Below, piece by piece: positions 53,460-55,460 of a stretch of DNA of 64,000 nt. The notes under the pieces are model-generated. The model was not told the DNA's origin. It worked only from the letters and a program-made list of their open reading frames with translations, and did not search any database. Numbering within the stretch: the stretch's first letter is position 1; every line of letters starts with the position of its first letter. The stretch spans positions 248,001 to 312,000 of the forward strand of contig JAJZMX010000004.1 of assembly GCA_021848145.1 (NCBI GenBank), given 5' to 3'. Origin of the DNA: a bacterium (GTDB lineage: Bacteria > Patescibacteriota > Saccharimonadia > Saccharimonadales > UBA4665). The translations under genes and the position numbers were made by a program.

Positions 53460-54080
53460 CTACTCTTTTGTTGGCTTAAATATCTGATCAATAATACCGT
53501 ACTTTTTAGCTTCTTCAGCAGAAAGCCACTTATCTCTTTCCATGTCTTCGTGGATCTGACTGCGAGGTTTTCCGGTATTCTTTGCCATTATTTCTTCAAG
53601 AAGTTTCTTTAATCGTAAACCTTCTCGCAGGCTTATTTCCTGATCAGTAATCTTGCCCTGCGTTCCGCTGGAGGGTTGGTGAATCATTACAGTAGAATTT
53701 GGCAATAGAAAACGTTTACCTTTAGTTCCACTACTTAAAATAAATGCTGCGGCTGACGCCTGAACACCTATTCCGACAGTCTGAATATCGTTATTCACGT
53801 ACTGCATAGTGTCATAAATTGCCAATGCATCATATGCTGATCCTCCAGGGCTATTTATATAAAGATAAATATCTTTTTTAGGATCAGCAGCCTGTAAAAA
53901 TAGTAATTGAGCTACTACAATGTTGGCACTAGCTTCGTTTATGTCACTGCCAAGAAATATGATTCGTTCCTTGAGAAGGCGCGAATAGATATCGTAAGCT
54001 CGTTCATATCGTCCATCCTGTTCAACAACGGTTGGGATTAATACCTGCGAGTTAACTTTGAATATATCTTCCATAATCAT
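53460..54080 (-). CDS. clpP: ATP-dependent Clp protease proteolytic subunit
   Basis: ClpP is the barrel peptidase that works with ClpX/ClpC-type unfoldases. The 206 residues show the triad Ser109 (GVQASAAAF), His134 (VMIHQPSSG) and Asp183 ([12 protein letters not shown]). The ATGs at 54080 and 54074 are both possible; both lie within 10 bases of the -10 box. A CIRCE element overlaps its promoter, so it should belong to the HrcA heat-shock regulon. The trigger factor gene lies upstream, as tig-clpP does in many bacteria. Confidence 0.97.
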
Positions 54081-54084
54081 ATCT

Positions 54085-54113
54085 ATAATAGGAAACTAGC
54101 ACTCAATAGTCAA
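54085..54113 (-). promoter_or_regulatory. Promoter of clpP
   Basis: TTGACT, exactly 17 bases, TATTAT on the minus strand. It ends 4 bases before ATG 54080 and is overlapped by the CIRCE element, so a bound repressor would block the -35 and spacer. Confidence 0.75.
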
Positions 54114-54122
54114 GAGTGCCAA
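54096..54122 (-). promoter_or_regulatory. CIRCE element (HrcA operator) at clpP
   Basis: On the minus strand TTGGCACTC, 9 bases, GAGTGCTAG. The known CIRCE consensus is TTAGCACTC-N9-GAGTGCTAA; only one base differs in each arm and the spacer is exact. CIRCE is the binding site of the heat-shock repressor HrcA, usually before groESL and dnaK. Confidence 0.88.
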
Positions 54123-54140
54123 TAACTATACTATATTGAC

Positions 54141-55424
54141 TTAGCTATTAAGTTTCTCAAGAAGTTGGACAGTTTTTTCAACAAGTATCCTGTTTTTGAT
54201 ATCTTCCTGATTTTGAGGTTTTTCAAGTTCAGCTAACATGCTGGCGTCTTCTGTATACTGTAATTTCAATTTACTAATACGATCCGCAAGTTCATTTTTA
54301 GATACAGATATATTTTCCGTATTGGCTATTTCTCCCAAAACTAGTCCGGCTTTAATTCTTTGTTTAGCCTGATCTTGAGCTATCCTTGTAAAATCTTGTT
54401 CGCTTAGCCCCTCTGCTTGTAAATATTCTTTCCACGTAAGTCCACTATAAGCAGCATTTTGCCTTTGATCTCGTTCAAAACGTCCCACTTCGTCAATTAT
54501 TAAGCTTTCTGGTAAATCTACCTCGGATGCATCAACAATTAAAGCTACAAGTTCATTCTGGAACTGAGCGGCTACTTCATTTTCTTTATTGGATCTTAAT
54601 TGCTTCTTGATATCTGCTTTAAGGTCTTCAAGCGTTTTAAACGGTCCAGATTGACTTGCGAATTTATCGTCAAGTTTTGGCAGTTTCATTGAGTTAACTT
54701 TATTAATTGTTACTCGAAATTTAGCCTTTTTACCCTTAAGAGACGAAACTGAATAGTCATTAGGAAATGTGACTTCGAATTCTTTACTTTCGCTAGTTTT
54801 TAGTCCAACAAGATTAGGTTCAAAACCTGGAATAAAAGTATTACTGCCAAGCACAAGCGGGTAGTCCTTGCCGCTCCCACCATCAATAGGTTCATTATTG
54901 ATTGCATAAAACCCATCAAAGTCTATGATGACTTCATCCCCATCTGAGGCGGGCTTGTTTGATTCAACACGTTCAGCTGACTGTTTTTGTAGTTGTTTGA
55001 TAACTTCATTTATTTCTTTAGCAGAAACTTTGACATCGCTTTTGTCTACTTTAAGCCCGTTGTATTTGCCAAGTTTTACTTTACCGATCACCTCAACGGT
55101 AGTTTCAAATTTTAAACTTTCAAAAGGCACAAATTCCTTAATTGTAACTTCAGGACGATCAACAGTCCTAAGCTTATTATCGATAATAGCTTTAGTGTAT
55201 AGATCATTAACAGCAACTTCTAGCACTTCCTGGGCTAATATATTCTCGTCTAAGTGTTTCTCGGCTACATTTAGCGGAACCTTACCGGGACGAAAACCTG
55301 GGATTCTTAAATTGTTGCTTAATTTAGTGACAGCAATTAACTTAGCCTCATTAATATCATCAGCACTTGCTTCAATGTTCAGTTTTGCAACCGTTGGCTT
55401 TACAAATTCTATTGTAGCTTGCAT
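54141..55424 (-). CDS. tig: Trigger factor
   Basis: Trigger factor is the ribosome-bound chaperone and peptidyl-prolyl isomerase. With ATG 55424 it has 427 residues: the ribosome-binding domain with the FRPGKVP-type loop (GFRPGKVPLNVAEKHL), a PPIase-like middle (DGDEVIIDFDGFYAINNEPIDGG...) and a helical C-terminal domain. A longer reading from TTG 55460 would start before the promoter. The -10 box is 8 bases before ATG 55424, which supports the shorter form. Confidence 0.95.
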   Translation of the reverse strand: MQATIEFVKPTVAKLNIEASADDINEAKLIAVTKLSNNLRIPGFRPGKVPLNVAEKHLDENILAQEVLEVAVNDLYTKAIIDNKLRTVDRPEVTIKEFVPFESLKFETTVEVIGKVKLGKYNGLKVDKSDVKVSAKEINEVIKQLQKQSAERVESNKPASDGDEVIIDFDGFYAINNEPIDGGSGKDYPLVLGSNTFIPGFEPNLVGLKTSESKEFEVTFPNDYSVSSLKGKKAKFRVTINKVNSMKLPKLDDKFASQSGPFKTLEDLKADIKKQLRSNKENEVAAQFQNELVALIVDASEVDLPESLIIDEVGRFERDQRQNAAYSGLTWKEYLQAEGLSEQDFTRIAQDQAKQRIKAGLVLGEIANTENISVSKNELADRISKLKLQYTEDASMLAELEKPQNQEDIKNRILVEKTVQLLEKLNS

Positions 55425-55432
55425 AAGTGTTA

Positions 55433-55460
55433 ATTCTATCAGCAATAGAGTTAGTATCAA
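55433..55460 (-). promoter_or_regulatory. Promoter of tig
   Basis: TTGATA, 16 bases, TAGAAT on the minus strand, 8 bases before ATG 55424. A leader of 0-2 bases is predicted. Confidence 0.55.

Follow-up and report, generated by a model that had tools for sequence, protein, structure and literature searches.

In the 64-kb stretch of DNA analysed here (the window), the gene for the proteolytic subunit of the Clp protease (clpP) is preceded on the same strand by the trigger factor gene tig, and the closest named relatives of the encoded ClpP belong to Candidatus Saccharibacteria, with identities of up to 89%. Directly in front of clpP, the minus strand from 54122 to 54096 reads TTGGCACTC-TTGACTATT-GAGTGCTAG, an inverted repeat that deviates at 2 of 18 positions from the CIRCE consensus TTAGCACTC-N9-GAGTGCTAA and of which both 6-bp core arms are exact and separated by a spacer of 9 nt. 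It is the sole site in the window at three or fewer mismatches, where 0.03 would be expected by chance. The hexamer TTGACT opens the CIRCE spacer and is followed, after exactly 17 nt, by TATTAT; the overlap of dyad and promoter is thus as originally predicted, and its position (54085-54122) was correct. Two in-frame ATG codons follow, at 4 and 10 nt past the −10 box (54080 and 54074, respectively), and no Shine-Dalgarno sequence was seen at either of them at this locus. The features are collected in Table 1. The significance of the dyad derives mainly from evidence outside the window, namely the number of exact cores in the genome as compared to a control pattern and the conservation in related organisms.

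Table 1 Features of the clpP promoter region and its flanking genes (positions in the window)
Feature	Position	Strand	Evidence
CIRCE operator TTGGCACTC-N9-GAGTGCTAG	54096-54122	−	Exact 6-bp core arms; chance 0.03 per window; kept upstream of clpP in relatives
−35 box TTGACT within CIRCE spacer	54108-54113	−	Sequence; TTGAC in spacer of 96/116 distinct clpP loci
−10 box TATTAT, 17 nt from −35	54085-54090	−	Sequence; co-shift with TTGAC register in relatives
Two candidate clpP start codons (A at 54080, A at 54074)	54072-54080	−	Sequence; distance statistics, 116 loci
Predicted clpP transcription start	about 54078-54079	−	Sequence
clpP, Clp protease proteolytic subunit, 206 aa	53460-54080	−	Pfam PF00574 CLP_protease, E 9.5e-75; NCBIfam PRK00277, 287.6 bits, over cut-off
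tig, trigger factor, same-strand upstream neighbour	54141-55460	−	NCBIfam TIGR00115, 377 bits; true start probably within the ORF

The source genome (0.95 Mb, 97.8% complete) carries a single copy of hrcA and five exact CIRCE cores, against none of the reversed control pattern. The five cores precede hrcA-grpE, dnaK, clpP, clpC and hsp20, and in the direction of the gene all have the form GCACTC-TTGAC(A/T)NNN-GAGTGC, with TTGAC in every spacer; those of hrcA and clpP are identical over the 21-bp core. Two sites with one mismatch are present upstream of groESL. The element at clpP is thus situated at the promoter of a stress gene, and further copies stand at dnaK and groESL of the same genome, as is characteristic of CIRCE. 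Both hrcA and additional CIRCE sites, which were to be sought according to the original prediction, are thus present, and its proposal that protein quality control is wired to HrcA is supported, with the regulation itself read from sequence. Its scope was too narrow, since the clpP promoter is accompanied by five or more others in a single HrcA regulon, and overlap between operator and −35 box is the rule rather than an isolated case. Some details of these regions deserve mention. The groESL sites form a tandem of imperfect elements (L015:4066-4130), the first of which holds a −10 box, TATAGT, in its spacer. Besides its CIRCE promoter, dnaK has a degenerate CIRCE-like site, TTAGCACTC-N9-TGCTGCTAA, downstream of that promoter (L012:4447-4517), and grpE and dnaK are separated by an open reading frame for a 512-aa protein without Pfam match (L012:4557-6095).

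Other heat-shock regulators were also sought. The source genome encodes one protein with a sigma70_r2 domain, a primary-type sigma factor of 374 aa, and an RpoH-type alternative sigma, on which a sigma-32 regulon would depend, was not found beside it. A ctsR gene, the mark of a CtsR regulon, was detected in none of 99 genomes of the class, including the source genome, which is a weak result because the control search also missed the B. subtilis gene. No ClpX scored above the cut-off in the source genome, though clpP is present, which leaves ClpC as the sole recognised partner of ClpP.

Judged from its sequence, the repressor is a shortened HrcA homologue and by score not an equivalog of NCBIfam TIGR00331, a model of 338 positions against which it reaches 179.7 bits, below the cut-off of 197.2. 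The Pfam domains HrcA (PF01628, 68 bits) and HrcA_DNA-bdg (PF03444, 28.6 bits) were both found above their curated cut-offs, with positions 1-102 of PF01628 left without a match, and about 100 aa are missing. At 236-240 aa, the protein is about 100 residues shorter than the 338 aa of the Thermotoga maritima HrcA (1stz). An AlphaFold2 model (pLDDT 82) gave 1stz_A as the best match in the PDB, with a TM score of 0.85 by query length, and thus has the overall fold of HrcA. The segment that is missing as compared to 1stz is presumably the inserted dimerisation domain of that structure. The gene, at L012:6636-7358 (G000:C3:15635-16357), is no exception in size, HrcA being short throughout the class, with open frames mostly of 230-280 aa. 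In total, hrcA is present in 144 of 147 class genomes.

The arrangement at clpP is widely conserved. Among the 80 loci most similar by ClpP, 78 have CIRCE upstream of clpP, and the two that lack it are labelled Ruminococcus and Clostridia; tig is found upstream of clpP in 75. Since this set had been selected by similarity, genomes were additionally sampled by taxonomy, with CIRCE scored as a site with at most one core mismatch before clpP. It was found in 44 of 49 members of the order (a sample with hand-picked genera that includes the window and in which genus g8 is undersampled), in 6 of 22 other members of the class, and in 3 of 50 other Patescibacteria. The dyad is therefore kept in relatives, which is the second check to which the original prediction had been tied. 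On the ClpP tree the trait requires 8 changes, compared to 55 with shuffled labels. A saccharibacterial-type clpP with CIRCE was also encountered on a contig labelled Chlamydiae (L122), probably as a result of a binning or labelling error. In nine other genomes of the class and one that was partly read, nearly all exact CIRCE elements precede hrcA, dnaK, dnaJ, groESL, hsp20, clpC or nusA-clpC, and clpP, the exceptions being two orphan elements and a site in a tRNA region, with no clear target. Orphan exact elements occur beside a possible flavin reductase gene (L183:2501, genome G123) and, with TTGAC and a good −10 box, at L189:2501 (genome G200); neither has a recognised chaperone target.

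Genus g8 seemed to deviate, as all 18 genomes examined lack CIRCE directly before clpP. Loss of clpP control in this genus was rejected when a CIRCE-clpC-(orf)-clpP cluster was found in seven genomes, six of g8 of which the full region was read and one of genus g16 (G245), and further g8 loci have clpC directly 5′ of clpP. Thus, clpP has left tig in these organisms, yet remained downstream of a CIRCE promoter. Neither this cluster nor CIRCE before clpP was found in genus g17 (G253, G270). Most basal families of the class have no CIRCE at clpP; in the basal genome G299 clpP directly follows tig without it, and some genomes, such as G168, have no clpP. In genome G228 (family f10), a CIRCE-like core situated about 1.9 kb upstream of clpP was considered as an operator of tig-clpP and discarded because of its ill-fitting outer arms and its position between tRNA genes.

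A set of 116 distinct clpP loci from the class allows the nesting of promoter and operator to be followed. The 9-nt CIRCE spacer contains TTGAC in 96 of these, as compared to 0.47% of background 9-mers, and the motif occurs at three offsets within the spacer: 0 (61 loci), 2 (4 loci) and 4 (31 loci). When the best TATAAT-like hexamer was located without reference to the −35 box, its distance from the operator start peaked at 32-33 nt for offset 0, about 35 nt for offset 2 and 36-37 nt for offset 4, so the spacing of the two boxes stays at 17-18 nt. The association between TTGAC register and −10 position gave a Fisher p of 2.6e-17, a value that overstates independence because the sequences are related. 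At least 20 changes of register are required on the ClpP tree, against a mean of 29 for shuffled labels. At groES of the source genome and of G149, G219 and G190, it is the −10 box that is located in the CIRCE spacer, with TTGAC 17-18 nt upstream and outside the dyad, and in the basal genomes G228 and G049 a promoter-like pair lies upstream of CIRCE.

In 71 of the 116 loci, the −10 box is separated from the first in-frame ATG by 0-13 nt, with a mode of 6-7 nt, and a Shine-Dalgarno-like motif is present in 1 of these 71 versus 36 of the other 45. The clpP gene of the window, with its ATG codons at 4 or 10 nt, falls in the short-distance group. If a leaderless mRNA is taken as one that starts at the start codon or within about 5 nt of it and has no Shine-Dalgarno sequence, the spacing in the window is compatible with it. 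The leaderless clpP mRNA that had been proposed along with the dyad is supported for the family by both spacing and the scarcity of Shine-Dalgarno motifs; for the window, the transcript may just as well have a leader of 4-5 nt.

These data bear on what the conserved element is. The near-constant presence of TTGAC in the spacer (96/116) could also mean that in this clade the motif is part of what HrcA recognizes rather than a −35 box, but its occurrence at offsets 0, 2 and 4 with a −10 box that shifts alongside identifies it as a −35 box, beyond any part it has in the dyad. The groES spacer, which holds the −10 box while TTGAC is positioned outside the dyad, points the same way, and recognition by HrcA was rejected as highly improbable. 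We give even less credit to the notion, likewise rejected, that the dyad owes its conservation to a role as RNA hairpin or as tig terminator instead of one as HrcA operator. It is true that the inverted repeat comes just after tig and would be transcribed on read-through, but no run of T follows it, its arms match the CIRCE consensus instead of forming just any stem, and the same arms are found before hrcA, dnaK, clpC and hsp20; the −35 box in the spacer, which moves in step with the −10 box, also speaks against a hairpin.

A more serious alternative is that HrcA binds CIRCE, but that clpP is mainly expressed by read-through from tig, with the CIRCE promoter contributing a minor, heat-inducible share. 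In 75 of the 80 similarity-selected loci, tig is the immediate same-strand neighbour 5′ of clpP, which fits this explanation, as does the gap between the two genes, with a median of 53 nt in loci without CIRCE and 220 nt in loci with it, which suggests an ancestral tig-clpP operon. On the other hand, most loci have retained a near-consensus promoter inside the operator, many clpP genes have their start codon at the expected transcription start and lack a Shine-Dalgarno sequence, in agreement with initiation at that site, and in genus g8 and G245 clpP is found behind clpC instead of tig. Predominant read-through appears rather unlikely. Expression data exist for Nanosynbacter lyticus TM7x, where RNA-seq showed a joint response of most chaperones and the opposite response of a predicted clp protease, TM7x_03020 (PMC10768705). 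This may count against control by HrcA, as do the repressor's short length and NCBIfam score below the cut-off and the lack of CIRCE at clpP in genus g17 and most basal families.

We consider it very probable that the element unites an HrcA operator and the clpP core promoter in one unit, on which HrcA would act as repressor and from which it would be released by heat, together with its sites at the chaperone genes. Known HrcA biology, in which the protein represses at CIRCE and loses DNA binding on heat (PMC8762339), suggests how this might work. At normal temperature an HrcA dimer on CIRCE would cover the −35 box in the spacer, which would exclude RNA polymerase carrying the single sigma-70-type factor; at groES, binding would cover the −10 box instead. 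Under heat or unfolded-protein stress HrcA would become inactive, and clpP would be transcribed along with hrcA-grpE, dnaK-dnaJ, groESL, hsp20 and clpC. Because this release is shared, the chaperones would rise together with ClpP and with ClpC, the one ATPase recognised as its partner. The clpP transcript would begin at the AUG or a few nucleotides before it. As deduced from these sequence patterns, repression of ClpCP and the chaperones most probably comes about because HrcA masks elements of their core promoters. Since the arrangement recurs in relatives and at most of their chaperone genes, the entire protein-repair system is probably under the control of one repressor.

For the whole order to which this small-genome Saccharibacterium belongs a broader picture can be drawn, which on balance we favour with some reservation. 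A single shortened HrcA would be the only transcriptional heat-shock regulator and would control the complete ClpCP protease as well as all major chaperones; core promoter elements would be kept in the operator spacer and would have been re-embedded repeatedly in different registers; and many clpP transcripts would be leaderless, so that under stress they could be translated without the normal initiation step. How Saccharibacteria and other Patescibacteria regulate their genes is little known. A compact regulon that can be read from sequence, with six or seven promoters, one repressor and one sigma factor, offers a testable model of protein quality control in a reduced cell.

Known HrcA regulons have groESL and dnaK at their core (PMC545781, PMC3842655), and our literature searches yielded no publication that deals with HrcA or CIRCE in Saccharibacteria or other Patescibacteria. 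A search for CIRCE overlapping a −35 region gave nothing with the terms used, which is no proof that it is unreported. The system resembles the class I HrcA/CIRCE regulon of Bacillus subtilis, lactic acid bacteria and delta-proteobacteria (PMC3842655, PMC545781) in its TTAGCACTC-N9-GAGTGCTAA operator, its hrcA-grpE operon and the presence of sites at dnaK, groESL and hrcA itself. However, that class normally comprises groESL and hrcA-grpE-dnaKJ, the clp genes being controlled by CtsR or sigma-32, whereas here CIRCE also precedes clpP, clpC and hsp20, and the spacer contains the −35 box (or, at groES, the −10 box). Control of clpP by HrcA has a precedent in Streptococcus salivarius, where according to the statement in PMC3842655 HrcA and CtsR act jointly (Chastanet and Msadek 2003); the present case differs in that clpC is included and the arrangement is order-wide, and in that no CtsR was found in 99 class genomes, by a search whose control missed B. 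subtilis. The HrcA regulon of Mollicutes also belongs to reduced genomes and has a Clp ATPase and a protease among its targets, but these are clpB and lon instead of clpP and clpC, and the consulted portion of that study reports no promoter-in-spacer pattern (PMC5138195). Thus, HrcA acting on clpP is not new in itself, while its clade-wide form with the promoter inside the operator appears to be undescribed. The CtsR (class III) regulon has similar targets, clpP and clpC, with a different repressor and operator. The regulon described here would also illustrate how a role that falls to CtsR or sigma-32 in other bacteria can be taken by one repressor, and how promoter and operator can nest while their register drifts.
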